Source: Actinomycetota bacterium (GTDB taxonomy: Bacteria > Actinomycetota > CADDZG01 > JAHWKV01). Taken from it: 64,000 nucleotides of DNA. Below are positions 2,632-34,816 of the stretch, piece after piece. The notes beneath the pieces are model-generated. The model was not told the DNA's origin and searched no databases. It saw nothing but the letters and a program-made list of their open reading frames with translations. Position 1 is the first letter of the stretch. Each line of letters begins with the position of its first letter. The DNA lies in contig JAUJPC010000006.1 in assembly GCA_030447305.1 (NCBI GenBank), positions 62,001-126,000 on the forward strand. The letters run 5' to 3'. The position numbers and the translations under genes are program-made.

Positions 2632-2855
2632 ATGCGGCAGGGCAGCGACGCACTTAAGGCATCGAACGTTCAACTTAATCCCGAAGCGCTGGTCACCTGG
2701 TTAAGAGACCGCGCGCAGGGGGGAACGAGTCTTCTGAGGGCCTACCTCTTCGACGGAAGTTATGACCCTCGTCACCCGGACTACGCAGCGCAGCGAACCG
2801 AGTTCGACCGCATTGCGGAGGCCCCATATGCGGCTGCGCCGGGGATCCCTTCAGG
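2632..2855 (+). pseudogene. NYN-domain (LabA/DUF88-like) fragment
   Basis: The frame reads [18 protein letters not shown] then [12 protein letters not shown]. It resembles the central strand and following helix of NYN ribonuclease-fold proteins, where a Y-D-(A/G)-x-x-DPRHP pattern is common. Both the N-terminal acidic DGxNL strand and the C-terminal half are missing. At about 2830-2855 the sequence passes into a DnaB-derived segment, so two unrelated gene scraps are fused. Not expected to be functional. Confidence 0.45.
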
Positions 2856-3057
2856 ACTCGGACTGGCCGAAGCTGTCGCACGCCCTCGGACGGCTGGCCG
2901 AGGCGCCCGATCTTCATCGACGACACCGCCAGCGTGTCGATCATGGAGATGCGGGCAAAGTGCCGGCGCCTCAAGGCCAAGCACGGCCTGGGACTGGTGA
3001 TCGTCGACTACCTGCAGCTGATGCAGCCGGCGTCCCGGGTGCGGGGCTCCCGAGCTT
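2827..3057 (+). pseudogene. dnaB: Replicative DNA helicase DnaB fragment
   Basis: From 2907 the frame encodes [20 protein letters not shown] then [12 protein letters not shown], the Walker B region of DnaB (hydrophobic strand ending in D, then YLQLM). Upstream, in another frame (2831-2907), [16 protein letters not shown] is the preceding DnaB segment. One extra base near 2909 separates the two. The Walker A half and the C-terminus are gone. This is a decayed scrap of about 75 codons and cannot be a working helicase; it could derive from a phage or plasmid dnaB. Confidence 0.75.
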
Positions 3058-3151
3058 GAGAAGATGGGGCTTATGCCAACTCAAAGAAGATACTCACCGG
3101 AAATGCGCGAGCGGACTGTTCGGCTCGTTGCCGAACACCAAACTAAGTACA

Positions 3152-3180
3152 ACAGTTAAAGGCGTGGGATATCTAGTCCA
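3152..3180. repeat. Dispersed 28-29 bp direct repeat, copy 1
   Basis: The segment ACAGTTAAAGGCGTGGGATA followed by TCTAGTCCA recurs at 30982-31009 with a single base deleted in the A run. Neither copy lies in a convincing gene, and flanking sequence diverges immediately. This copy sits between the dnaB scrap and the dehydrogenase gene. Confidence 0.8.
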
Positions 3181-3283
3181 CACTGAAGCGCATATTGATG
3201 GTTGCCATCGCAAGCAACGAGACTCGAGAGTTCGCGGCTTCCTGGCCCGGGCCCAGAGCTCTTTTTCGACAAACGTGAAAAGC

Positions 3284-4945
3284 TCATAGATTCTGGGGCG
3301 GTCGGCCAGTTGGTACATAACTAAAGCCTGCTTCCACCACTAGATTAGAGTCCAGAAGATTGGGTCCATCAATGACGATTGGGAATGTGACGATTCCTTT
3401 CAACCGCTCGAAGTCGAGGTCCCGATACTCCGGCCAAGCCGTGCAGATAACGATGCAATGCGCTCCCTCGGCTCCCGCGTAAGGGTTATCTACAATGTGT
3501 AGGTCCGGAAATTCTCTGGCGGTCGCCCTGTTCGCTTGAGGGTCATGTCCAAAGACTATTGCGCCAGCGTCGGACAATATGGCTGCAAGCTTTAAGGCCG
3601 GTGAGTCGCGTACGTCGTCCGTTCCGGCTTTGAAGGCTAAACCAAGAAGCAAAATCCGCTTGGACTCCACGTTCCATAATGCATCCGTAATCTTTCGGAA
3701 GGTTGAATCGATAGCTTGCTGATTGATTTTAATGACTTCGTTCAGAAGGCCAAATTCGTAACCTAACCTGCCCGCAAGGGCATAAAAGTCAGGCACATCC
3801 CTTGAGAGGGAGTAGCCGCCGTAACCAAGTCCGGGGTTAAGGAACTCCCTTCCGATGCGATGATCCGAACCCAAAATATCCGCCACCGATACAACGTCTG
3901 CACCCGAAGCTTCACAAATCCGGGCCAGAGCATTTGCGAACGAAATCTTTAATGCAAGGAATGTATTGCAAGCATACTTAGCCAACTCGGCCGTGAGTAT
4001 GTCTACTTCGAAGTACTGGGTACTGCCTCTCAAAACCGGTTCGTAAAGCCGCCGCATAAATGCGAGGGCCACAGGGTCGTCGCTTCCAACAAGGAGCCTC
4101 TCCGGCCTTAAGCAATCCTCTATAGCAGACCCCTCCCTAAGGAAGTCAGGGTTAACTACTAGTCGTACCACCTGGCTTGTTCCCTTAGCGAAGATCATTG
4201 CTAGCCGATCCGCCGTCCTTAGAGGCACTGCTGACTTCTGGATCACGACGATCTCTGCAGTTATGTTCCTGGCTATCGCCCAAGCCGCATTCTCAACTGC
4301 TAAAAGGTTCTTATCGCCCGCTTCTCTCGATGGAGTTCCGACGCAAATGAAGGCGCACTCGGCCCCGCGGAAGGCGTCGGAGACCTCGTGGGTGAAATCC
4401 AGCCTTCCCTCGCGAATTACCTCGTCTAGCAGGGCTTGGAGACCAGGTTCGTAGAAGGGCATTTCTCCGGCCTTTAGCATGCTGACCTTGACTTCATCTT
4501 CATCCAGGCCGACGACCTCATAACCGAAGAAGGCGAGAATCCCGGCAGTAATAAGACCTACATGTCCGAGTCCGATCACTAGGACCTTCAGGGGAGTGAA
4601 TCCAGTCGGCAAACTATCCTCGTGATCAATGACCTTTGCGCTCAGTCTTGCGAGAACATCAATTACCTTTGCTTGCTCCTCCGCCCACGCCTCTTTGGAG
4701 TCGTCAGGCAGTGAAGAAATAAGTTCGATTGTGAAGACGTCTTCACCAACATCACGACGCACAATTAGTTGAGCGGCATCTTCACCCATTTCCCGTAGCA
4801 AGCGATGGCCGATCGTTACTTCGTGTAGCCGATGGGCGCCTAGGAAAGTTACCCCCAGCTCTCGTTGTAGCGTCTCAATAGCGACGGCATTGAGCGGGAA
4901 GGTTGCCGCCACCTTCCACCAACGACGAGGAGCGTTTGAGTCCAT
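3284..4945 (-). CDS. UDP-glucose/UDP-ManNAc dehydrogenase homologue lacking the catalytic cysteine
   Basis: Residues from about 120 onward form a complete UDP-sugar 6-dehydrogenase. The Rossmann motif is VIGLGHVG. The substrate-binding segment NPDFLREGSA and the central helix ELAKYACNTFLALKISFANA (K and N conserved) follow. GLAFKAGTDDVRDSPAL opens the C-terminal UDP-binding domain. The catalytic loop, normally GYGGYCLPKD or GFGGSCFPKD, reads GYGGYSLSRD, so the nucleophile Cys is Ser and the Lys is Arg. An extra N-terminal domain of about 115 residues is unlike ordinary enzymes of this family. The ATG at 4945 overlaps the stop of the upstream gene by one base (TGATG), so translation is coupled; an in-frame GTG at 4963 exists. 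It may bind nucleotide sugars without full oxidation. Confidence 0.85.
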   Translation of the reverse strand: MDSNAPRRWWKVAATFPLNAVAIETLQRELGVTFLGAHRLHEVTIGHRLLREMGEDAAQLIVRRDVGEDVFTIELISSLPDDSKEAWAEEQAKVIDVLARLSAKVIDHEDSLPTGFTPLKVLVIGLGHVGLITAGILAFFGYEVVGLDEDEVKVSMLKAGEMPFYEPGLQALLDEVIREGRLDFTHEVSDAFRGAECAFICVGTPSREAGDKNLLAVENAAWAIARNITAEIVVIQKSAVPLRTADRLAMIFAKGTSQVVRLVVNPDFLREGSAIEDCLRPERLLVGSDDPVALAFMRRLYEPVLRGSTQYFEVDILTAELAKYACNTFLALKISFANALARICEASGADVVSVADILGSDHRIGREFLNPGLGYGGYSLSRDVPDFYALAGRLGYEFGLLNEVIKINQQAIDSTFRKITDALWNVESKRILLLGLAFKAGTDDVRDSPALKLAAILSDAGAIVFGHDPQANRATAREFPDLHIVDNPYAGAEGAHCIVICTAWPEYRDLDFERLKGIVTFPIVIDGPNLLDSNLVVEAGFSYVPTGRPPQNL

Positions 4946-5709
4946 CAAATATCTACCACCCAATCAGTGGGGCGAAAATGCGCGGACTGCGGCCCTATTT
5001 CCTCCTCTCGGTTGAGGGGACCCCGAGCCGGAAATACCGCAACTGAGACCAGCCGTCCGAGCGCCTCTCGTTGCCGGACCGTCCACAGATGTAGGTATGG
5101 ACAGACTTCTTCGACGAGGTCTTTTCTTATGAATGCGTACTGGGTCGAGTGAACCGTAAGTTCGTTCGCTTCCAACCCGAGCTCCTCGATGAGCTTAATT
5201 GCACGGTTTGTGATTATGTCACTGGAAAGTTGAAGGTCGTAGTCGCTGCGCTCGGGACTAAGGCCGAGGACAAACAATGAGTCAAACGGCCTCCGAGATG
5301 GTCGAGGCTGGGCGGAGGGCCAGATAGCCTCCATAGTTGCCAGAATGTGGTCAACCTGCAATGCATAGGGAAGCCGGCGGTGCAAATACCGGTACGTTTC
5401 GACGGTTTCCAAACGGGTCCAAGGCAACAACTTGTGGTAACCAGAGAAAAAGTCTACGGAACTTCCTTTTAGTCGAACGTCGACTTCGTTGACACCGTCT
5501 CTGAAAAGTGCATCCCGCAAAGAATCAACAAACAGCGCGTATTGACCAGTCGTCATGCCCAGTGGTGCCAGGCGATGGAGGTACGCACCAATAGATTCCT
5601 TAGATATTCCAAGGAAGGAGAAATCCTCGGAGCAACAACAGTAGCCAGACCTCTCGTCGACCGGAAGCGCGATTGCCGTTTGGCTCTCCTGCCTGGGTCC
5701 TCTTAACAA
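4945..5709 (-). CDS. Nucleotidyltransferase-like protein, partner of the dehydrogenase homologue
   Basis: A 254-aa soluble protein of a family I know only as uncharacterised in actinomycetes. Conserved-looking blocks are VDVRLKGSSVDFFSG, then RRPFDSLFVLGL and SDYDLQLSSD. The order Gly-Ser-Ser, then after about 70 residues Asp-Tyr-Asp, recalls the GS ... DxD signature of nucleotidyltransferase-fold enzymes, with wider spacing than usual. A Cys cluster (GYCCCSED) lies near the N-terminus. The frame begins with TTG at 5709; an internal ATG at MTTGQYAL would be too late to keep the first block's flank. It is the first gene of a two-gene unit with the Cys-less dehydrogenase. The NTase assignment is inference. 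Confidence 0.6.
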   Translation of the reverse strand: MLRGPRQESQTAIALPVDERSGYCCCSEDFSFLGISKESIGAYLHRLAPLGMTTGQYALFVDSLRDALFRDGVNEVDVRLKGSSVDFFSGYHKLLPWTRLETVETYRYLHRRLPYALQVDHILATMEAIWPSAQPRPSRRPFDSLFVLGLSPERSDYDLQLSSDIITNRAIKLIEELGLEANELTVHSTQYAFIRKDLVEEVCPYLHLWTVRQREALGRLVSVAVFPARGPLNREEEIGPQSAHFRPTDWVVDI

Positions 5710-14403: not shown

Positions 14404-15576
14404 TCAGGCCTTCGTACACGCCTCTCGGAGGCGCGCCAGTACATCGGAATGGGGATATTCGCCGCGCAAGGTGCTCAAGACCCAGTCCACAGAGAGCCGA
14501 TTGTGAGCTCGTCTAAATCCGTCCGTCAAGGCTGGGCCGTCTATGACCATGCAGACCTGTCCGCGACCGCGGCGGGATCTTATGAGGTCGGCGCGGATCC
14601 GTCCTCTTCCCTCCAGTTCTGCCATAGAAAAGGAAGCGTTAGTCAGCACGGGATTTCCGCTTCCGATACTGGCCGTGCCGGTCGGTGCCCTACCCGTTTG
14701 GGCATGAATGTCTTCCACAATATGAGCTAGAGGCAACTCTTCCTGAAGAGTCCAATAGAGGGTCCAGTACGGAGTCTCGCAAGCCTCGATAAGCGATTCA
14801 AAGGCACGGTGACTAGTGCTCTCGACGTAAATGTTTCCGCAGGTGTAGTAGCGTCCGTCGTACTGTTCGAAACCCCACCTCAAAGTCACCGTCACGTGCC
14901 CAAAGGGCAGACGCAGTCGGTACGTTTCTTCGAACTCATTGAGGTTCTCTAACCTTTCAGTCTTCGGTGAAAGAGTCTCAGAGAGAGTTTGAAACCATTC
15001 CTGTAGTTGGACCTTCGACGCCGCCACCTCTGATTTTCGAACAGCGAACTCCTCGTCGTTAAGAGGTCTCTCTCTGCCATTCCTATCGATGCAGAGTCGC
15101 AAGTCAGCCGCGTAGCCATGAAGTTTGGTGTTGTACCCTCTGCTCCGACGCTCCAAGGCCTGGAGAAACTCTCCGCAAATCCCCAGCACCAGATGCTCCT
15201 GATGAGGCAGCAGGTCCCGCCCATGCATCAATGGGATCCGCAGATCGTTGAGCTGGTCGAAATACAACTCGGTCCGTCGTCGATCCCAAAACACAGCGCT
15301 GAATGAATTCCAATTTCGCAGCACCAGGGCCTTCAGTTCCACGATATGGCTGTAATCCAATAGCCTATCTGAGACCGTTCGGTCGGGAAATCGTTGTTTC
15401 TCATCGGTGCGTCGATGCTCGAGCCCCTCCCGCTCTAGCTTTGTCCAACCGGTCGGCTGGTTTTCCCAATCAGGTCCTATCTCGTTAGATAGAACCCTGG
15501 CGATTACTGCGCGAAGATGTCTTTCTACGGTACTGACACAGTCCCTAGCTTGGCCGGGAGAAAAAGTAAACTCCAC
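14404..15576 (-). CDS. Swt1-type HEPN domain protein
   Basis: A 390-aa soluble protein. The N-terminal 130 residues match the Swt1-like HEPN fold: RAVIARVLSNEIGPDW, a charged helix, DRLLDYSHIVELKALVLRNW, then the HEPN signature RIPLMH (R113-x4-H118) within LRIPLMHGRDLLP. HEPN domains with intact R-x4-H are commonly metal-independent ribonucleases used in immunity and toxin systems. The C-terminal 200 residues are unrecognised, with beta-rich stretches (YRLRLPFGHVTVTLRWGF). The start is GTG. It is divergent from a second HEPN protein 193 bp away, and both lie between attachment-like repeats, so they probably moved as one cargo. Confidence 0.75.
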   Translation of the reverse strand: MEFTFSPGQARDCVSTVERHLRAVIARVLSNEIGPDWENQPTGWTKLEREGLEHRRTDEKQRFPDRTVSDRLLDYSHIVELKALVLRNWNSFSAVFWDRRRTELYFDQLNDLRIPLMHGRDLLPHQEHLVLGICGEFLQALERRSRGYNTKLHGYAADLRLCIDRNGRERPLNDEEFAVRKSEVAASKVQLQEWFQTLSETLSPKTERLENLNEFEETYRLRLPFGHVTVTLRWGFEQYDGRYYTCGNIYVESTSHRAFESLIEACETPYWTLYWTLQEELPLAHIVEDIHAQTGRAPTGTASIGSGNPVLTNASFSMAELEGRGRIRADLIRSRRGRGQVCMVIDGPALTDGFRRAHNRLSVDWVLSTLRGEYPHSDVLARLREACTKA

Positions 15577-15769
15577 ATATCTAGAATCCCTGATTCGGTA
15601 GCCAGTTGCCTAAGTGCAGTTCTTGCCAACTTTCTTGCCCATGAACCTGGGATTAAGAATCCATCCGACACTGAATGGTCGCGGCTGTTGTCCAACTATG
15701 GCCCGTTACTACTCTCCGGCTGCGCGGATGGCTGTTTAACTGGCAGTAGGTTAGGCGTACGAGGGCCTT

Positions 15770-16726
15770 ATGGGTGCTTGGAAGTTTCGACTTCGCTTCC
15801 GAATGCCAGAAACGTCGGGATTTTCAGTTGAAGAAAGCAAGCTTGTGGTGGACGTGAATCCATGGATTGGCCCGCTTGTCCTCGAAGTGTGGCCTCGTGG
15901 CAACGGACCCATTAGTCAAGCGGAATGGCTAGTGCTTACCGGCACAGCCCCATCAGAGGAGGACGCCTGGGAACGTGGGGCGGCGCTTGCCCGTTCGGCT
16001 CAGCGAGCGTTTGCTCGGTTAAGAATTGCCGCCGACTTTGGAGACCGAGCGGCCAAAGGAGGCCTAGGTGTGGATGGCAAACATTTGATAAAGGGCGCCA
16101 CCGGAAGACCGGCGTTAGATGACGTCCATGGCCTTATGGTATTTCCAGAAGATCCGAAACCGTGGCTCCTAAGCGTGGGTTCAATTACGGCCAAAATGAG
16201 CGCTCAGGAGGATCGGCTGCGCGTTGCGCTGGAAGCAGCGCTGGAGGAGCATGAAGTCCTAGGCGAGGACGAACGCATCGCATATGACTTGTACGCAGCA
16301 TCCTTCTTTGATTCCTCGGCCGATTCAAGACTCATAACGCTGGTCACAGCCGTTGAAACGATGGTTACGCCGATCGCTCGTACGGCAAAGGCGACGGAGC
16401 ACGTAGAAGGTCTGATTGTCGCCACTCGAGAGTCGAGGGCCTTGGCTGAAGACGACAGAGCATCGTTGATAAGTGGCCTAAGGGAGCTTAGGAACAAATC
16501 GATCACCGCGAGCGGGGTCGACTTCCTTAATGCAAGGTTGGGAGAGCGCAAGTACGGCGATGAATCGCCGGGACAGCTATGGAAAACGGCGTACCGTCTC
16601 CGAAGCAAGCTAGTTCATGGTTCAGTTCCCCGACCCACAAGAGACGAAGTCGGAAGGTGCGCCGCCCGCCTTGAAGTGATGGTTAGTAACCTCTTGGCAG
16701 GTAGCCTTATTGATCTTGCGGTGTAA
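15770..16726 (+). CDS. ApeA-like HEPN domain protein
   Basis: A 318-aa soluble protein. The last 150 residues resemble ApeA-type HEPN: LITLVTAVETMVTP, then LISGLRELRNKSIT, and the signature LRSKLVHGS (R-x4-H). The N-terminal 150 residues are a separate, probably beta-rich sensor-like region (VVDVNPWIGPLVLEVWP). ApeA-like HEPN proteins are associated with abortive defence. The start is ATG at 15770; the intergenic gap to the divergent Swt1-HEPN gene may hold a shared control region. Both catalytic residues are present, so it could cleave RNA on its own or neutralise or be neutralised by its neighbour. Confidence 0.7.
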   Translation: MGAWKFRLRFRMPETSGFSVEESKLVVDVNPWIGPLVLEVWPRGNGPISQAEWLVLTGTAPSEEDAWERGAALARSAQRAFARLRIAADFGDRAAKGGLGVDGKHLIKGATGRPALDDVHGLMVFPEDPKPWLLSVGSITAKMSAQEDRLRVALEAALEEHEVLGEDERIAYDLYAASFFDSSADSRLITLVTAVETMVTPIARTAKATEHVEGLIVATRESRALAEDDRASLISGLRELRNKSITASGVDFLNARLGERKYGDESPGQLWKTAYRLRSKLVHGSVPRPTRDEVGRCAARLEVMVSNLLAGSLIDLAV

Positions 16727-16798
16727 CAGGGGAACAGTACTGGGCCTAATTTATGAGAACTGGGGCGTCCCAATGTACGCACGGACAACTGAAGTTGT

Positions 16799-17984
16799 TC
16801 ACCGCGATGTCTTCTCAAGTCCTCCGTAAACAATCTCCGCTACGCGGTCCGCTGCGTCCCGTTGCTGACCGGGCATCTCATGCCCGTAGGTGTCCAGGGT
16901 GAAGCTCACGCTTGCATGACCGAGTCGCTTTGATACGACAAGAATGTTCACACCGGCTTGAAGCGCCAGGCTCGCGCTTGTGTGCCGGCAGTCATGAAAT
17001 CGAATCACCGGGACTCCGGACTCCTTGATGAGTCGCTTGAACGCCCGGCCGAATGCCTCGGGGTGAACCAACTCCCCGTTCTCGCGGCTGAATACTAGGC
17101 CGGAGTCCTGATAAGCCGGGCCCCAAGCGAGACGTTCTTCGGCTTGCCTGCTCTTATGGACCTTGAATCTGGACTGTCTTGGAGTCCAGGTCCAGCGTCC
17201 GCCCACCGGCGAAGCTCTTGGGAGAGCCAAACTGAGGTCGGTAAGCCACGCTGATCAGCGTCTGGTTAACCGTCAGCCTGCCAGCCTCCAGATCGACATC
17301 CTTCCAGCGAAGACCCAAGATCTCGCCTTTGCGCATACCGGTGCAGAGTGCCAGAGCCCACGCTGCCCATAGCCGGTCGTGTTCGGCATGGGTAAGGAAC
17401 CGTTGAGCCTCCGGCGCAGTCCAGTGCTTCATCTCGTCCTGAACCAGCTTCGGGGGCCTAACGAGCAGAGCCATGTTTCTTTGAACCAGCCCATCGGTTA
17501 CTGCATCGCGCAGCGCAAGCTGCAGGACCGCATGGATGTAGCGGATGGTCCTGCTAGACAGGCCCCCGGGTTCGCCGTCTTGGCGTCCGCCCTCCTGGGC
17601 CAAGTCCGAGTAGAGCCGGCGTAAATGGCTGGCCTTGAGGTCCTGTAGGGCAATAGCTCCAAGCCGCGGAATGATCTGGCGCTTAACGAGGCTTGAGTAG
17701 CTTAGGTGGGTGGATGGTCTCACTTGGGAGGTCATGCTGGGAATCCAGTCCGCAAGGAACTCTCCGACGGTCAGTGAGCTCGGCTGTACGTACTCGCCTC
17801 GATCTATCTCTAGAAGGGTCGAGCGCACCCATCGCCATCCCTCTCGCTCGCTTTTGAACGCGTTGGTCCTGGTAACTTGCTTTCGCCGTCCGGTCGCTGG
17901 GTCGACGCCGATGTCAACCACAGCACTCCATGCGTCGTACGGCGCACCATCGCGTCGTTTCCGCTGGAATACTCGTCCTTTCAT
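16799..17984 (-). pseudogene. int: Tyrosine recombinase (phage/ICE integrase), frameshifted
   Basis: The frame from 17984 carries an AP2-like N-terminal domain (GRRKQVTRTNAFKSEREGW), the SAM-like arm domain (VGEFLADWIPSM) and the first catalytic Arg (CTGMRKGEILGLRWKDVD). After a one-base loss near 17170 the second frame continues KSRQAEERLAWGPAYQDSG, with HDCRHTSASLAL (H-x-x-R) and the nucleophile Tyr in TLDTYGHEM, ending at 16799. All catalytic residues survive. It would act on the nearby tRNA-Asn type attachment sites. With the frameshift the island should not excise by itself. Confidence 0.85.
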
Positions 17985-18144
17985 CTAGCCGACCTTCCGT
18001 GCCGTTCTTGCCTGCCGTACCGCTTGAGCCTCATAACAACGACGATACGGATCGGGGTGACACGGACCGGAACCGCGGAGAGACCAGCGATCTCATCGGT
18101 CCGCTGCCGTGGATGCACCGGGGCCGGAGCCCTCCAGGAGTTCC

Positions 18145-18300
18145 TCAAGGGCTCTGCGCGCGCAGGCGCCGGCCGAACCTTAATGCCGGGATTTCGCCCC
18201 GACGGACCGCCTCGTAGGCGGCCGAGCGGCCAATTCGCAGAAGGCGGGCGGTTTCCTCGACGGTGTAGACGCTGACCGCAACCGTTTCTTCAACGTCCAC
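18145..18300 (-). pseudogene. xis: Excisionase (HTH, Xis/MerR-like), frameshifted tail
   Basis: A short helix-turn-helix protein typical of actinobacterial integrative elements: VYTVEETARLLRIGRSAAYE then AVRRGEIPALRFGRR. A GTG at 18300 (VDVEETVAVSVYTVEE) is the likely start. After FGRR the frame reads LRAQSP-stop; a one-base shift would continue into RALEELLEGSG, the usual C-terminal helix, so the tail is broken near 18160. It sits about 160 bp upstream of the integrase in the same orientation, the standard xis-int order. Confidence 0.75.
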
Positions 18301-18455
18301 GGACCTACTGCCCGAGCTCGGTGGCGAAGGCCTCGGACTACTCATGGCGGAGGTGCTCCAAGGAGAGTCGTTTGTCCCCGCCCAGCGCGAGCCAGATCGG
18401 CTCCAGCGGCCTGTCAAGATGCCAGTCGAGGATGGAAGTCGCCACGGTTAAGCGA

Positions 18456-19010
18456 CTAGCTCGAAGAGCTGGCCTCGCGAACCGCTCTCGCCTTGTGCTT
18501 GGAAAACAGAACAGCAGCAGCTCTGGCAGATGATTTGAGATATTTTACCTGCCTCATGTGGTCGAGCCGAGGGCTGTTAACCAGAGCGAGGTGCCGGCTC
18601 TTGCGAAGGTGCAGCTTGTTGGCGTCGATGCCCCGGGCATGGGAGACGATGTCGGCGCCGAGCTTGTCCAGCACGTAGTGCCAGGGCCAGGACCCGGGCC
18701 TTTTTGGGGGCCGGAAGCGGTTAACCAATCCCAGCAGGTAAAGCTCATGGAGTCTGACCCGAGCTCGGGCATGGGTGGAGAAGTGAAGCTGATAGACCTG
18801 AGTGGTGGTGAGGAACCGGTGATCGAAGATGTCGAGACAGATGTCCAGGTCTCTTTGAGTAAGGTTGGAGAGCACGGATACAGAATCGAATCTGTACCGG
18901 TTAGGCAATACAGATTGAGAGTGGAGGTCTTGACTGCGCGCCGCATCAGGCCTCTCAGGCACGGAGCTGGCCACTTTGGCCCCGCGGTCGCGGACGCGCG
19001 CCATAGGCAC
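18456..19010 (-). pseudogene. Replication-relaxation family protein, N-terminal part
   Basis: LTQRDLDICLDIFDHRFLTTTQ, HARARVRLHELYLLGLVNRF and PWHYVLDKLGADIVSHARGI are the winged-helix N-terminal half of replication-relaxation proteins of actinobacterial plasmids and integrative elements. After SPRLDHM the usual domain is replaced by a short Ala/Lys/Ser tail (stop 18456), so about half the protein is missing. It completes the int-xis-rep block of a decayed integrative element. Confidence 0.65.
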
Positions 19011-19949
19011 CTCCAGATCGCGCCAGGTTGCGCGAGACAGTGATCAGACCGGCTCAGGCGTCGCTCCGGCGTCGCACTGTTCTTGGATGGGCCGAGCGCC
19101 AGGTTTTTCGGCAACTAGGACAGGGCGATGCAGCTTTGTGGTGGACCTGATCAGGGCACGATTTCAGGACAAGTGCCCGAGGCGGGGCTGTGACGTCGCT
19201 ACCAATGTCCCTAGTGCACGGGACCGGCGTGGTCAGCGATCCCTTCATTGACTCCTTCACCATGGCAGCAGTCTGAAGTAGGCGCGTCGCCGGAACGTCG
19301 CTATGGCGTCGCTGTGCCAACGTCCCGCCGTATGCGATGTCCCAAGAGGTGGGACAAATCGTTCCGGAGACATCTCTGACGTTCCGGGGACAACCATGAC
19401 GGCTGTTCCGGATTATGCCTGAAACCGCCAAGCGTTGGGCTTCAGCCTGTCTCCAAATCGAATTGATTCAAGAGGCGGGTGTGCCTGAAGGTGATGGAAC
19501 ATGGCAGAACTCAAATTGCGGCTAATCTTCGGCCAGAGAGGACCGGCCAGTCGATGTCCAAGGTATGCCGGGCGCCATGGCTCTCGAGACATATTTTCTT
19601 GTGTATTACCGGTACCTTACTGAGGGCGGGGACGGGCTGCTACCTAGAACCAGGGCACCCTACAGGTCGCCGGGACAGATCGACGTCGACCTGGAGATTC
19701 AGATCTGCAAGACGCGAAAGACTACCGTCCCTGGGGAGCCCGCCTGATCCGCGCCGAGCTGATTAGGGCCGGGCTTTTCGGCATCCTGTTCGGGAAGGCG
19801 GTCCTGAGATTGCTACGCTGTGGCAGGTTGCCTTGCATCAGCCAGATCTTGCGGAGCTGGCGCTTAGGCTGGGAATTCCAAAAAATACCCAAGGCTAGAC
19901 ATGTCAATGTCATGGAGACGATGGGGGGTATCGGCTGCTCATTAAGACC
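19011..19949. other. Non-coding stretch with recurring CGTTCCGG motifs
   Basis: No supportable gene in about 940 bp. Within 19288-19415 the octamer CGTTCCGG or its complement occurs about four times (near 19289, 19350, 19380 and, with one mismatch, 19402), giving an irregular array of inverted and direct copies. A plus frame at 19565-19747 (VYYRYLTEGGDGLLPRT) is open but without recognisable features. The array could be a regulator or replication-protein binding region for the element. Confidence 0.35.
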
Positions 19950-22364
19950 TTGTACGTAAGGTTCTTCCGATCATTCAATGTCGACTACATCAGGAAAAAT
20001 GATTCCAGGGCCCGTCCGAGAGCATGGGAAGAGATCGATAACACTTGGCAACCTTTCGTTGAAGTGCCGATAGAGAGGGCAATAACAACGATCGTCGGAG
20101 CCAACGAATCAGGGAAATCGCAATTGCTCGGGGCGATGGAGCGCGCCCTCACAGGAGAAAACATAAGTAGGCCAGATATGTGCCGGTACTCCGAGTTCTT
20201 TCGGGTCAGAGAAGGACTTGTTCGATTGCCGGATTTCGGTCTGAAGCTGGGGGAGCTTACAGAGGGAGATAGAACTGCACTATCCAAGGCGTTCGGTACT
20301 TCAGTGGAAGGACGTGACGTCTTCCTGTTCCGGTTGAACGGGGGGGCTCCAACTCTTTATCTGTCACAAGAAGGAGATCCTTTCAGGATTCGAGGCGACG
20401 CCAGACTAGAAAACGTCCTACCCACGATCATCAAGATTGACGCACGAGTAGCTCTGCCGGCGAGCATTCCAATACACGCTCTCTCCGGAGAACGATCATT
20501 CCTCAAGACCCGTAGGCGAAGGCGCACCGCAATCGATCTCTTGGACAGCGATTCATCTTGGTCCAAGCCGGAAACAGGTTCGAACCTCATGTCGACTCTT
20601 CGGGATGCACTTCAATCCGCGGAACCCGACAGGAAAGAAAAGACGGTTCACCAAGGCGAGCTAGCCTTAGCAAAGAAGCTCCTTTTTGCGGTAGCGGGCA
20701 TTGATAAGAGCGTTATGAAAGAGCTATCAGATGCGCTGAAGGACGAACAGGACGGTCATGTCAGAGGCATCGTCGATCAGATCAACCGCGAACTAGGCGT
20801 ACGACTGAACTTTCCGACCAAATGGGCGCAGGACCGGGAATTCAACTTAACGGTCGCACCGAATGAGTATGACTTGCTCTTCACTATCTCGGATCGGACT
20901 AGGACTCATTACACTTTTGCGGAACGAAGCTTTGGGTTGCGTTACTTCCTTAGCTATTACGTCCAGTTCTTGTCGCACTCCCCTGCCGAAGGCGGTCGAT
21001 CTGAAATCCTATTAATGGACGAGCCCGACGCCTACTTGTCGAGTCAGGGACAGCAAGATCTCCTCAGACTGTTCGATGACTTCGCTGCCACTCCCAATAC
21101 GAGCCGTCAGGTAGTTTTCGTGACTCATTCACCTTTTCTGATTGATCGCAACCATGGAGAACGAATTCGTGTATTGGAGAAAGGCTCTCGAGATGAGGGC
21201 ACTCGCGTAGTCAAGGATGCGTCTCGTAATCACTACGAACCGCTGCGGTCTGCGTTCGGTACGTATGTCGGTGAGTCCGCCTTCATCGGAAACGCAAACC
21301 TTTTCGTGGAAGGGCTATCCGACCAAATTCTTCTGGTTGCCGCATCCTCATACCTTAGGTCTATAGGTTCCGCCGCAACCGAAACACTTGATCTGAATCA
21401 GGTCACGATTGCCCCAGCGAGCGGCGCACAAAATCTTGCGTATTTGGTGTACCTTGCCCGCGGGCGCGACGTGGAACAGCCAGCACTCGTAGTACTACAC
21501 GACGACGACGAAGCGGGACGCTCTGCTGCCGCGGAGATCAGGCGAGGGCCACGTGGAAAGCCGATTCTCTCGGACAAATTCATTATTTCAGTGACGCAAG
21601 CGTTCAAGGCTACGGGTGATCAAGGAATTGAACCGGAGATCGTCGTTAGGGAGCCGGAAGATCTTATCCCTCTCCCGCTTGCCGCCGCGGCCGTAACTGC
21701 CTACGCCAATTTGTTCCTGGCTCAGGACGGCGCAGTGCTTAACGTGACCTCAGGTGACATATCTAGTCATCTAGGTGATGAAGGTCGGCTCTTTGCTGCC
21801 ATAACGAGCGCACTGCAAACGAAGGTGGGAACCGCAACTGCTGGTATATCGAAGGTCGGTTTTGCTCGAGAGATTGCTAGCCTCCTGGAAAAGGTTCGCA
21901 GGGGGGAAGCGATCGACGGATGTTCCCCCGCCGACTTCGATCAGTTTGCTCGAAACTTTCGATCACTCTTTGTCACAGTTTCCGATGCCCTCCTTCAAGC
22001 AATCGGGGAGAGGAAGCGAATCAGCGTTGGGACTTTGGTGGAACGAGCGAAGAATTCATTCTTGCGGGACCACGTCGGGGCCGCTAAGAGGGAAGACGGG
22101 CGTAACCTGATCCTTCAACTAGAGCAAGTTCTGGACGACAGTCTTGAAGCAGATATTGTTCGCCAGGAACTCGGAAGGCTGCGAAGAGACTTCAACCTCG
22201 AGGTGGATCTAGCAGCGCCCATTTCGGAGTTCGCCGAATTCAGACAGCAACTAAACCGAATCCGCTACGCGGGGGTGTTGGCCACACAAGAGCTAGACCC
22301 TACAAAGCTTGGTGAAGTCGAACCTGAAGATGGGACTGCGGGTGGAAGGCCGACGGGCCTCTGA
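19950..22364 (+). CDS. OLD-family nuclease (ABC ATPase + TOPRIM)
   Basis: An 804-aa single-chain OLD endonuclease. The ATPase half has Walker A VGANESGKSQ (residues 49-58), Walker B ILLMDEPDAYL (about 351-361) and the H-loop VFVTHSPFLI (about 390). The TOPRIM half has NLFVEGLSDQI (catalytic Glu, about 449) and VVLHDDDEAG (Asp pair, about 515). A helical C-terminal region of about 150 residues follows. OLD proteins are DNA nucleases of anti-phage systems (P2 Old, GajA of Gabija). No UvrD-like GajB is adjacent, so this would be a stand-alone type. The start is TTG at 19950, giving MYVRFFRSFN, which fits the family. It is intact, unlike the surrounding mobility genes. Confidence 0.85.
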   Translation: MYVRFFRSFNVDYIRKNDSRARPRAWEEIDNTWQPFVEVPIERAITTIVGANESGKSQLLGAMERALTGENISRPDMCRYSEFFRVREGLVRLPDFGLKLGELTEGDRTALSKAFGTSVEGRDVFLFRLNGGAPTLYLSQEGDPFRIRGDARLENVLPTIIKIDARVALPASIPIHALSGERSFLKTRRRRRTAIDLLDSDSSWSKPETGSNLMSTLRDALQSAEPDRKEKTVHQGELALAKKLLFAVAGIDKSVMKELSDALKDEQDGHVRGIVDQINRELGVRLNFPTKWAQDREFNLTVAPNEYDLLFTISDRTRTHYTFAERSFGLRYFLSYYVQFLSHSPAEGGRSEILLMDEPDAYLSSQGQQDLLRLFDDFAATPNTSRQVVFVTHSPFLIDRNHGERIRVLEKGSRDEGTRVVKDASRNHYEPLRSAFGTYVGESAFIGNANLFVEGLSDQILLVAASSYLRSIGSAATETLDLNQVTIAPASGAQNLAYLVYLARGRDVEQPALVVLHDDDEAGRSAAAEIRRGPRGKPILSDKFIISVTQAFKATGDQGIEPEIVVREPEDLIPLPLAAAAVTAYANLFLAQDGAVLNVTSGDISSHLGDEGRLFAAITSALQTKVGTATAGISKVGFAREIASLLEKVRRGEAIDGCSPADFDQFARNFRSLFVTVSDALLQAIGERKRISVGTLVERAKNSFLRDHVGAAKREDGRNLILQLEQVLDDSLEADIVRQELGRLRRDFNLEVDLAAPISEFAEFRQQLNRIRYAGVLATQELDPTKLGEVEPEDGTAGGRPTGL

Positions 22365-31162: not shown

Positions 31163-34100
31163 TTGACTCAGCTGAGGCTTGCGTTGGCGATGCGGGGCGG
31201 CGTTAGCCTTGCGGTTTGGATGGGCGGGGCGTGTGCCGAGATAGAAGCGTTGCGAAGGGCGCGGCCCACCGAAGAGCAGGAGCCGCTTGATCGAAAGCCC
31301 GCTGATGCAGTTTGGGTTGGCCCTGCCGTTGCGGCGGGCGAGTTCTGGGGGCCGCTACTAGAAGTTGCCCATTTCAATCAGGTCCAAGTGGACGTGCTCG
31401 CTGGCACGAGTGCGGGTGGGCTGAACAGCGTTCTGCTCGCAACCTCGCTAAAATACGGCGTCGAGTTCGGCGCCTACCGTGAGCTCTGGCTTGAGCTCGC
31501 CGACCTGCGCCAACTACTCCGTGGAACCAATGAGCGCGACCCTCAATCCCTATTGCGCGGGGACGAGCACTTTCTGAAGACGCTTACGACCGCGCTGAGA
31601 GAACAACTCTCGGATCGGTCCCCAAACAACAGCTACCTCGACGTTTCCCTCACGGCCACCGTCCTTGACCCCATGGGTGTGCAGTCGATCGACGACCTCG
31701 GAACACCAGTGCTTGAGCCGTCGCATCGAGCCAACTTTAGGTTCCGGTCCAACTACGGCACGACTGACTTCGTCAAAGCGGCCGTCTCTTCCGCCGAGGC
31801 CGTTTCTAAACAACAGTCAGAACTCAACTCCGGTATCGCTGAGAAATTAGCGCTGGCCTCGCGTTCTACATCGTCATTTCCGGGTGCCTTCGAGCCAGCG
31901 CTTATCAAGATTCAGCGTCCAGCGGATGTTGACCAGTCCGCTCAACTCGGGAAACGTTCGGGGCCCGAGCAAGGGGCGACAAACCTATTCGGACAATTCA
32001 GCGACGCCCGCCGGACGGAATACCGGGTTATCGACGGAGGCGTCCTGGACAACATCCCAGTTGGCCGTGCGATCCATGCAGTGGCTGGCTCCCCCGCCAG
32101 CTCGGCGACTCACCGCTACCTCCTCTACCTAGACCCCAGCCCTCGCACGGCTGGCTACGCAGAAAAGGCGGAGACGGACTTCATTGCGACGCTCTCAGGT
32201 GCCAGTGGCGCAAGGGGCACTGCGGAGTCGGTGCTCGATGATTTGGCGGAGCTCCGTCGGCACAACGATATGGCGCAGCGTTATCGGGCCATGCAACGGA
32301 TGATCAGCGCAACGCTGCCACCGCAACTAACCCTGTCAGAGGAGGTCATCGCCGCGGCGAATGAGCAACGAGCAACGCTTACAGCTAGACGGATCCGCGC
32401 ATTGCTTGAGGATCCCGTATCCGCATTGGGCGAGGACCCTTTCGTCGACACGCTACAAACCACGCCGCTCCTGGCGTCTCGAGGACGTGGTGCGCCGAAC
32501 GCTCAGACGCCATTCGCCATGCGGCTAAGTCAGGATGAGCTCGACGGATTCGAGGAAGAACTCAGAATACGGCTTAAGGAGAGGTTGCCCGCAACACTCG
32601 GCAAGCCTCGGGAAGCGGCTGCACTCCTTGGACCTCAAACTCTAACCAGAACAGCCCTCGCGCTACTCGAAGTCGCACACGATGACGAGCTCCGGGGGAC
32701 CGAACGAGGAATTTTCAAGAAGCGTCTCTACGACGTGCACGTCACCGCCTCGCTGCTTGCCCACATTGCTGAGCTCTTTTGGCCGGTACACGCCTCCTCC
32801 TCCCCGCCGCCTGGGAAAGACGGGTGGACATCGTGGATCATGGCGGCTCTCCACGAGCAACACGAGCTGCTCCAGCAAATGGGCGAGCTTACGCCCGAGC
32901 CTCAGGATAAATGGGCGTCATACAAGTGGCTTTATAAAGAGGTCGTTCGCTGTCGCGGACTCAGCCAGCGGCTGGTGAATCCTAGAAATGCCCTCCAGGC
33001 GCTGTTGTGGGATGAGCTAGTGGCGGTAGGTAGGATGCTGGGTAAGGAAGCGGTGAGTGACTCTGCGGCACCACTGCGACCAAAATTGGAGGCCGTCGCC
33101 TCGTCCAGATTTTCGTCTCCGAAGGTTGGACGCGTGCTAATCGCCTATGAGATGGCGACGCAACCGTTGCAGACCATAAGCCCACGTCCGCCACTTCCGA
33201 TGAACTTCATGCGCGTGTCGAGCGCGCAGCGTAGCCCCGCCGCTGACGGGTTTTTCGGTAGCCGGTTAACGCAGGAGTCCAAGCTGGCTGGCAATGACGT
33301 GATGAACTTCGCAGCCTTCTACAAACGCTCTTGGCGGGCCAACGACTGGATGTGGGGGCGACTTGATGCTGCTGCAGCGCTCGTCAGTCTGCTCCTGCGC
33401 CCCGGGATCATGCGCGAACACTGGGGGAGTGCGGACATCGAGACCCTCCTCGGACATTTCAAGGCCGCCGTCACAACCATCGGAAACGGTTCGCCCTTCA
33501 TGGACCAGCACATTGACACCGACGCTTGGGCCAAGGAACTTGAAAGGTTGTGGGCAAGCAACTTGGTGGGGATCCGAAAAGAACTTACGGAGCTTCTGGG
33601 ACCGCGTGGCTCGACTCAGCGTCTCGATAAACTTTTGGCGACGCTCATGGAGCGGCGCCAGCTGGAGCTTCTCTGTGGGGAGCTACCCTCCGTAATCCGA
33701 GCCGCAGCCGCTGACCAACTTGGAGTTGCCAATGCTGCACTTGCAGAGGCGACCCGGAGGGAATCCCTGATCGTCCCAACCACTCTTTCGGGGGTCAATG
33801 CGGAACAACATGTTGCCACGCCTGGGAAGCTGCGGTCGCTATGCCGCAACGACTATCGGGTGGGTTCCGAGAGGCTCAAGGATGACATTGGGCGAGCCGA
33901 CTTCACGGAACTGATGGCGCATTTGCTCGTCGTCGCGTGGAAAGCCGTCCGTGCTTCAGTTCAGATTCCCGCATTTCTCCGCCCAGTCGGGATTGCGCTT
34001 AACGCGATTCGCGCGGCGGCGGTGGGAGTTGTACGGGCCCCACGATGGGCGCTCGTGGGCTTACCGCTGGGCGTAGTACTGTTTCTGTGGGTGGCCATCG

Positions 34101-34816
34101 ACGGACGATCCGTCTTCGGGGTCCTCGATCGAACGACGGCGATCGCTGCGCTCGTCGGAATCTTTATCACCGTCGGCTTGCCCGTGATGCAGTCGTCACG
34201 GCTACGGCTCGTAGCGACGGTCGCGATGCTTGCAGCTGGGGGAACATTGGGTTTACACCTTTGGGAACGGCAAGGGCTGCTGGCCGAAGAGTTCCGCGGC
34301 GTTAATTTATTCGAAGGCAAAGAGATCGTGCCGGTCGAAGCCCTATGGTGGTCAGCGGCTGGGATTACCGGGGGAGCCGCTGCACTAGCAGCATATAGAG
34401 GGATGGCGTTGTTGTCCGCCCGTCGCCGCCTCGGCTTATCGGAGGCCAGGAACTCGAATGAAACACCTTCACATTTAGGGACGCCATTGTTCATTGCCGC
34501 AACCACAGGAGTACTGCTGCTCCTCAGCTGGCGCTCCGATGCTGTAAAGAGTTGGATCAACAACCTCGCCTTCGAGGCCGTATTGGTAGCTTCCCTAGTT
34601 GCCGTAGTCACAGCGTCACTCGCCGTGTCCGTAGCTCTTTATGTTGCGTGGCGCCTCCACCGCTCTACGTATGTCTCCGTACTGGTCGGGACATTCATGT
34701 TTGTAGCGGTTATGCGCTGGCCGCTGAAACTGCCCGAACTAGCCACCCTAGTTGCAGTGGCAATTGCATCCATTGTCCTACCAGTCCTGCAATCACGACG
34801 ACAGCCTCAGCGCTAA
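31163..34816 (+). CDS. Patatin-like phospholipase with C-terminal multi-pass membrane domain (DUF3376 type)
   Basis: A 1217-aa protein. The N-terminal patatin domain begins LRLALAMRGGVSLAVWMGG (oxyanion-type Gly-rich strand), carries the nucleophile Ser in VLAGTSAGGLNS (GxSxG, about residue 80) and the dyad Asp in VIDGGVLDNIPVGRA (DGG, about 291). A helical middle region of about 500 residues matches the architecture of actinobacterial DUF3376 patatins. The last 270 residues contain about eight hydrophobic helices (for example ALVGLPLGVVLFLWVAI, AVLVASLVAVVTASLAVSVAL). TTG start, with GGGAG eight bases upstream. Expected to hydrolyse phospholipid at the membrane; patatins act as effectors in several immune systems. 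No sensor gene is adjacent. Confidence 0.9.
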   Translation: MTQLRLALAMRGGVSLAVWMGGACAEIEALRRARPTEEQEPLDRKPADAVWVGPAVAAGEFWGPLLEVAHFNQVQVDVLAGTSAGGLNSVLLATSLKYGVEFGAYRELWLELADLRQLLRGTNERDPQSLLRGDEHFLKTLTTALREQLSDRSPNNSYLDVSLTATVLDPMGVQSIDDLGTPVLEPSHRANFRFRSNYGTTDFVKAAVSSAEAVSKQQSELNSGIAEKLALASRSTSSFPGAFEPALIKIQRPADVDQSAQLGKRSGPEQGATNLFGQFSDARRTEYRVIDGGVLDNIPVGRAIHAVAGSPASSATHRYLLYLDPSPRTAGYAEKAETDFIATLSGASGARGTAESVLDDLAELRRHNDMAQRYRAMQRMISATLPPQLTLSEEVIAAANEQRATLTARRIRALLEDPVSALGEDPFVDTLQTTPLLASRGRGAPNAQTPFAMRLSQDELDGFEEELRIRLKERLPATLGKPREAAALLGPQTLTRTALALLEVAHDDELRGTERGIFKKRLYDVHVTASLLAHIAELFWPVHASSSPPPGKDGWTSWIMAALHEQHELLQQMGELTPEPQDKWASYKWLYKEVVRCRGLSQRLVNPRNALQALLWDELVAVGRMLGKEAVSDSAAPLRPKLEAVASSRFSSPKVGRVLIAYEMATQPLQTISPRPPLPMNFMRVSSAQRSPAADGFFGSRLTQESKLAGNDVMNFAAFYKRSWRANDWMWGRLDAAAALVSLLLRPGIMREHWGSADIETLLGHFKAAVTTIGNGSPFMDQHIDTDAWAKELERLWASNLVGIRKELTELLGPRGSTQRLDKLLATLMERRQLELLCGELPSVIRAAAADQLGVANAALAEATRRESLIVPTTLSGVNAEQHVATPGKLRSLCRNDYRVGSERLKDDIGRADFTELMAHLLVVAWKAVRASVQIPAFLRPVGIALNAIRAAAVGVVRAPRWALVGLPLGVVLFLWVAIDGRSVFGVLDRTTAIAALVGIFITVGLPVMQSSRLRLVATVAMLAAGGTLGLHLWERQGLLAEEFRGVNLFEGKEIVPVEALWWSAAGITGGAAALAAYRGMALLSARRRLGLSEARNSNETPSHLGTPLFIAATTGVLLLLSWRSDAVKSWINNLAFEAVLVASLVAVVTASLAVSVALYVAWRLHRSTYVSVLVGTFMFVAVMRWPLKLPELATLVAVAIASIVLPVLQSRRQPQR

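Follow-up and report, generated by a model that had tools for sequence, protein, structure and literature searches.

A candidate toxin–antitoxin-like gene pair in an Actinomycetota bacterium, with a predicted UDP-glucose dehydrogenase pseudoenzyme fused to its immunity-like partner

Introduction

Among the described systems closest to the gene pair reported here are the type VII (ESX) polymorphic toxin/immunity pairs of actinobacteria, in which a C-terminal domain of a long protein is followed immediately by the gene of its immunity partner. The pair, gene 1 and gene 2, lies within 64,000 nucleotides of DNA from an Actinomycetota bacterium (GenBank assembly GCA_030447305.1, contig JAUJPC010000006.1, positions 62,001 to 126,000), the whole of which is called the window. 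Gene 1 encodes a stand-alone domain, and gene 2 encodes an immunity-like N-terminal domain (Nd) fused to a degenerate copy of UDP-glucose dehydrogenase (UGD). As in the type VII pairs, relatives of gene 1 stand at the C-terminus of long proteins, an Nd-like gene following immediately downstream, and some of these loci lie beside ESX-like genes; the window domain differs in standing alone, without an export or delivery part, within a probable defence island, and in having its immunity domain fused to a second protein, and both families are described in no library searched.

Two further comparisons concern how such a pair might work. In CapRel-SJ46, in PARIS (AriA/AriB, with Ocr as trigger) and in Panoptes a toxin is restrained as long as no foreign factor reaches a sensor, and the same logic is proposed here; in the window, however, the proposed sensor would be a host-protein copy that is joined to the antitoxin, and it is known from sequence alone. 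The integrated decoys of plant nucleotide-binding leucine-rich repeat (NLR) receptors likewise join an immune component to a copy, degenerate or exact, of some host protein, which differs between members; the window pair is bacterial and has no NLR, so that the resemblance is one of design only, with a putative effector target. The reading that we favour, tentatively and at a little under even chances, is that genes 1 and 2 descend from a polymorphic toxin/immunity pair and now make up a toxin–antitoxin-like module for abortive defence, the antitoxin of which carries a bait or sensor.

Results

Both open reading frames (ORFs) of the pair are intact and have a single base in common, within TGATG. 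The initial annotation, a model's reading of the letters, had described two coupled ORFs and, in the dehydrogenase, an N-terminal extension of about 115 residues besides the changes C260S and K263R, and the ORF check bore this out; it had also held that every UGD signature except the Cys and Lys was present, and here the Cys and Lys changes stood and T118A and E141D had been overlooked. Profile searches of both proteins found UGD domains in gene 2 and nothing for gene 1. The two genes are taken to be a real unit because gene 1 and Nd occur together in at least 10 other loci.

Residues 120–532 of gene 2 match three UGD Pfam domains (E 2e-47, 2e-29 and 4e-28) and the NDP-sugar dehydrogenase model TIGR03026 (E 1e-113), which supports a three-domain UGD fold from sequence. 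The window UGD thus has all three domains of the UGD/TuaD proteins, and its UGD part is 69.5% identical to the canonical copy of the same genome, which lies on another contig (G000:C4:17865-19178; G and L numbers label genomes and loci), beside an epimerase gene, with the normal motif GYGGYCFPKD; it differs from these enzymes in the replacement of Cys, Thr118, Glu141 and Lys263 and in the additional N-terminal domain. The active-site motif reads GYGGYSLSRD in gene 2 against GGxCFPKD in 21 of 21 homologues compared, all of which have Cys260 where the window copy has Ser, and Thr118 and Glu141 are changed to Ala and Asp. T118, E141 and C260 belong to the 18 residues reported as invariant across 229 nucleotide-sugar dehydrogenases (PMC4794789), 15 of which are retained in the window copy, the Rossmann glycines, K204, N208, D264 and K320 among them. 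Altogether the window UGD is altered at four of seven catalytic positions (hypergeometric P 0.004) and breaks 11 of the 89 positions invariant in the other homologues, most of which, when each was left out in turn, broke 0–2 such positions (5 and 9 for the two worst).

In a tree of relatives the window copy groups with four UGDs of its own genus (support 0.99), with a branch length of 0.37 compared with 0.05–0.09 for the genus copies. Measured against the canonical copy, the proportions of nonsynonymous (pN) and synonymous (pS) change are 0.195 and 0.80, the synonymous change being saturated. From tree and alignment, the window UGD is best described as a lineage-internal duplicate under strong purifying selection. 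Because its catalytic residues are lost while other invariants are kept under strong purifying selection, we read it as a maintained and, by prediction, catalytically dead pseudoenzyme, in agreement with the earlier suggestion of a copy compromised in catalysis. Decay as a pseudogene was rejected in view of the intact ORF and by a pS of about 0.8 with a pN of 0.2. The copy is not phage-derived, since phage-encoded UGDs are ordinary and at most 39% identical to it. Among the collections searched, no second Nd-UGD fusion was found.

The initial annotation had also raised a modified-nucleotide pathway. That the window UGD might still work, as a variant nucleotide-sugar dehydrogenase in a pathway for modified sugars or nucleotides, is most improbable: its substrate and cofactor residues are mostly kept, but T118A, E141D, C260S and K263R occur all together, the genome has its canonical UGD beside an epimerase gene, the neighbours examined include no sugar-pathway genes, and the partner is a toxin-type domain. 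Moreover, the conserved partner of gene 1 is Nd, the dehydrogenase being one of several interchangeable fusion partners of the latter.

In human UGDH (PMC3184952) a Cys-to-Ser change leads to accumulation of a covalent adduct, and mutation of the Thr lowers kcat 8-fold; ligand binding, even trapping, by the window UGD is therefore plausible, whereas turnover is not. These data bear on the possibility that the fused part is a metabolite sensor, reading a nucleotide ligand and passing its level to the Nd-toxin complex; the ligands would be UDP-glucose/NAD+ for UGD, and GTP/GDP and GTP or cyclic di-GMP for the EF-Tu and GGDEF partners described below. With C260S, the UGD would be expected to bind both UDP-glucose and NAD+, and a stable ester adduct might even arise, as the human mutant suggests. 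We consider a metabolite sensor unlikely, though still to be reckoned with; it is favoured by the retention of ligand sites (the 15 of 18 invariants noted above) and by the fact that each of the three partners identified in stand-alone pairs binds nucleotides, but on its own it accounts neither for an EF-Tu partner equal to the housekeeping one nor for the loss of a whole group of catalytic residues.

Residues 1–115 of gene 2 have no Pfam match. At loci L019, L020, L066-L069 and L105 (genomes G1004, G861, G936, G948 and G1283 included) an ORF of about 115 amino acids (aa) of the Nd family directly follows the gene 1 domain, and in Catellatospora (L018/L021) a double-length Nd version is found, beside ESX-like and mycosin-like genes. 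A profile built from 12 Nd sequences, either unfused or fused to partners other than UGD, scored the window Nd at 15.2 bits, a value equalled in none of 5000 shuffles; among the stand-alone pairs the count was likewise 0/5000 for the L016 and G1271 Nd and 7/5000 for that of G058. By these profile scores, the N-terminal domain of gene 2 is assigned to the immunity-like family encoded after the gene 1 domain. Its model has the order β-α-β-β-β-α at low confidence (predicted local distance difference test, pLDDT, 64), and its best matches in the PDB, to phosphoglucomutase, were not significant. In genomes where no gene 1 homologue adjoins it, Nd also occurs as an orphan, as a tandem of three and as a GNAT fusion: a 517-codon ORF (L103:5391-6944, minus strand) has three tandem Nd-type domains and looks poly-immunity-like, and an Nd-GNAT acetyltransferase fusion (L100, minus strand, ending at 4596) lies in a genome in which no gene 1 homologue was detected.

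Gene 1 had no match in Pfam, NCBIfam or PADLOC and no meaningful sequence match in the PDB, none there to a nucleotidyltransferase (NTase), and by these searches it defines a family described in no library searched. A contig search with the single gene 1 protein found nothing; an alignment-based search found 20 loci. The relatives, 31–40% identical, were confined to Actinomycetota among the collections searched, and viral contigs and phage genomes yielded none. Across 24 family sequences G82, S155, D156 and D158 are invariant, and the conserved motifs are KGS-x-FFSG-HK, RRPFD, SDxD and SSGPP; the GSS and SDYDLQLSSD blocks that had been pointed out in gene 1 are present and fall at conserved family positions.

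Most relatives are domains within long proteins. The gene 1 domain is terminal or nearly so in ORFs of 1000–1700 codons from Mycolicibacterium, Catellatospora and others (in Mycolicibacterium arenosum, L019, it ends a 1688-codon frame), and at L018, L019, L021, L066-L069 and L105 it forms the C-terminal domain in long proteins of toxin type whose genes adjoin a small gene; some of the long-protein loci adjoin type VII secretion-like genes. On Streptomyces plasmids the domain lies in NUDIX-containing giant proteins. One such gene, L012:3532-6891, and its relatives from Streptomyces and Micromonospora plasmids encode 1100-residue proteins with NUDIX, a middle domain that by eye is ADP-ribosyltransferase-like and the gene 1 domain at the C-terminus; these genes are downstream of a CehA/McbA metallohydrolase gene and a small hypothetical gene. 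The stand-alone 254-aa product of gene 1 has no trafficking N-terminus, and no secretion gene was seen among its annotated neighbours.

In the AlphaFold model of gene 1 (pLDDT 84.8) the GS loop and the SDYDL strand are ordered strand to strand, as an NTase core would allow; GSS and SDYDL fall on predicted strands 77–81 and 157–162, about 70 residues apart, and by eye there is no conserved third acid. Foldseek found no match to the PDB with E below 2, and a single one among viral models, to the uncharacterised 1147-aa Fadolivirus protein A0A7D3V5N9 in BFVD (prob 0.99, E 2e-3, TMq 0.41), which gives no function for gene 1. The NTase fold proposed in the initial annotation was thus not confirmed, and the label is at present a motif-level guess.

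The stand-alone versions of gene 1, those of the window, G058, G1271 and Streptomyces griseoluteus (L016), group in a single clade with support 0.948, which is nested among the toxin-type domains. The coupling recurs in the G1271 pair as a 4-nt overlap, and the fusion of Nd to a second protein recurs with a different partner: UGD in the window, a complete EF-Tu in G058 and a GGDEF domain in G1271. The EF-Tu part in G058 and the housekeeping EF-Tu are the same protein (100% identity), and their coding sequences differ at 6 of 1188 nucleotides, always synonymously; the homology stops exactly at the ORF ends, and the housekeeping gene lies elsewhere, beside another GTPase gene (apparently fusA). 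An assembly artefact is unlikely, the genome being in 3 contigs with both copies present, six differences and different flanks. The GGDEF part in G1271 (E 1e-30) has an intact RGGDEF motif. The UGD and EF-Tu parts, two of the fusion cases, are the lineage's own.

These fusions may also be read as incidental to a plain toxin–antitoxin or orphan immunity cassette, or as addictive, the antitoxin being stabilised by its tie to another gene; the fused part would then have no sensing role. Incidental fusion is possible because each fusion is a single case (1 of 148 genomes in the genus of G058), and Nd is also found alone, in tandem and GNAT-fused without a gene 1 neighbour. Such a cassette is nevertheless rather improbable, as it does not account for a UGD that is dead yet under purifying selection, for UGD and EF-Tu parts that come from elsewhere in the chromosome and were not neighbours read into, or for three different fusions within one small stand-alone clade.

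The neighbourhoods of the stand-alone pairs agree with the defence-related setting that had been suggested for the window. A type I restriction-modification system and an NsnA/PD-T4-2-like gene lie 2–12 kb from the window pair on the same contig, and HEPN-like and OLD-type genes and a phage integrase lie 9–19 kb away among insertion sequence (IS) fragments. Divergent from the G058 pair is a gene for a SLATT_4 two-transmembrane (2TM) effector of the cyclic-oligonucleotide-based antiphage signalling system (CBASS) type, the G1271 pair comes after a short prokaryotic Argonaute and its restriction endonuclease-type partner, and the L016 pair is followed by a CHAT-domain protein. All four stand-alone pairs therefore have a defence or effector-type neighbour, a plain count given without a random-locus expectation. 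Neither gene 1 nor gene 2 matches any PADLOC anti-phage model, nor was there a CD-NTase match.

It was considered whether gene 1 is an NTase making a second messenger for a membrane effector (SLATT), with the Nd fusion as regulator, in the manner of CBASS. The GS and SDxD blocks of gene 1, the SLATT_4 gene divergent to the G058 pair and a small membrane protein near the window pair are consistent with this, but gene 1 has no similarity to PADLOC CD-NTases, PDB or Pfam entries, no SLATT match occurs at the window, and the gene 1 domain is terminal in long toxin-type proteins with Nd encoded alongside; we regard CBASS-like signalling as very unlikely. For the small membrane protein, a SLATT identity found no support: it has no Pfam match and only the weak PDC-M50A match of Table 1. 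IS debris (2632–3289) lies between its ORF and gene 2.

Two observations were made farther along the window. HEPN-like, phage integrase and OLD/AriA-like ATPase-TOPRIM genes stand in a row at 14404–22364, which is probably a mobile defence island, and a 1217-aa patatin-like phospholipase with DUF3376 is encoded at 31163–34816 on the plus strand.

Table 1. Positions of the genes and domains discussed; coordinates without a locus or genome label are those of the window.
Feature	Position	Strand	Remarks
Gene 1	4945-5709	minus	254 aa from TTG; NTase-like by motif, stand-alone version of toxin-type C-terminal domain
Gene 2	3284-4945	minus	553 aa from ATG; fusion of Nd (immunity-like) and predicted UGD pseudoenzyme, coupled via TGATG
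Nd domain of gene 2	4616-4945	minus	residues about 1-110; by profile score and shuffles
UGD part of gene 2	3284-4600	minus	residues 116-553; T118A, E141D, C260S, P262S, K263R
Ser codon TCC replacing catalytic Cys (C260, S. pyogenes numbering)	3809-3811	minus	
Small membrane-protein ORF	2056-2538	plus	weak PDC-M50A match (PADLOC E 9e-7); module membership only candidate
HEPN-like protein	14404-15576	minus	candidate defence family PDC-M34B
AAA/OLD-type ATPase	19950-22364	plus	weak TOPRIM match (AriA/Old/GajA-like)
Nd-EF-Tu fusion (second tuf)	L005:10857-12461; G058:C1:1824778-1826457	plus (L005)	Gly-rich linker
Gene 1-like and Nd-GGDEF pair (G1271)	L104:4833-6469	minus	beside short Argonaute

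Discussion

The interpretation originally placed on the pair, a nucleotide-sugar sensor or modified-nucleotide pathway, is partly supported; we now take the pair for a probable descendant of a toxin/immunity system in which the antitoxin has been fused to a pseudoenzyme. In the abortive-defence module that we favour, gene 1 would be the toxin, probably a nucleotide-using enzyme (the NTase fold being unproven), and the Nd of gene 2 would be the antitoxin restraining it. The C-terminal part of gene 2 would be an interchangeable bait or sensor, here a dead copy of the host UGD. An invader, in the simplest case by means of a phage protein acting on UGD, would bind, modify or degrade the bait; Nd, thus disturbed, would free the toxin, and growth stop or cell death would follow. 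The sequences themselves show how the genes are built, their homologies, a UGD pseudoenzyme under purifying selection, the recurring fusions of Nd and the neighbouring defence genes; the toxicity of gene 1, the binding of Nd to the toxin and the triggering by the bait are what we infer from the arrangement. The bait version is preferred because the UGD and EF-Tu parts are local and self-derived and because, in UGD, catalysis is lost and constraint kept.

Several points weigh against this abortive-defence reading. Gene 1 finds no PDB match by Foldseek, so that any chemistry ascribed to it is putative. None of the many other full-length GGDEF domains in the G1271 genome is more than 44% identical to the fused one, which therefore does not closely copy a host protein; the second half of the L016 protein may be another Nd and not a bait (5.9 bits, 3/5000 shuffles); and the Nd homology in G058 is weaker, as the shuffles given above indicate. 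Each Nd fusion was found in a single genome, that of the window in 1 of 24 of its class.

A broader form of the proposal, that there is a family of integrated-decoy modules whose antitoxins use as bait a host-protein copy, exact or degenerate (of UGD, of EF-Tu and perhaps of GGDEF), exchanged between lineages, so that the toxin would be sprung by whatever invader attacks the protein copied, is possible but doubtful. The fusions to UGD, EF-Tu and GGDEF suggest a tripwire by which host proteins or metabolites would be monitored.

Independently of the bait, the analysis has brought out a domain of toxin type, paired with an immunity-like protein, and a predicted UGD pseudoenzyme kept by selection. 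If the bait reading is true, bacteria would share the integrated-decoy design with the immune receptors of plants, and one could tell from the bait which host proteins are attacked by phages, UGD and EF-Tu among them.
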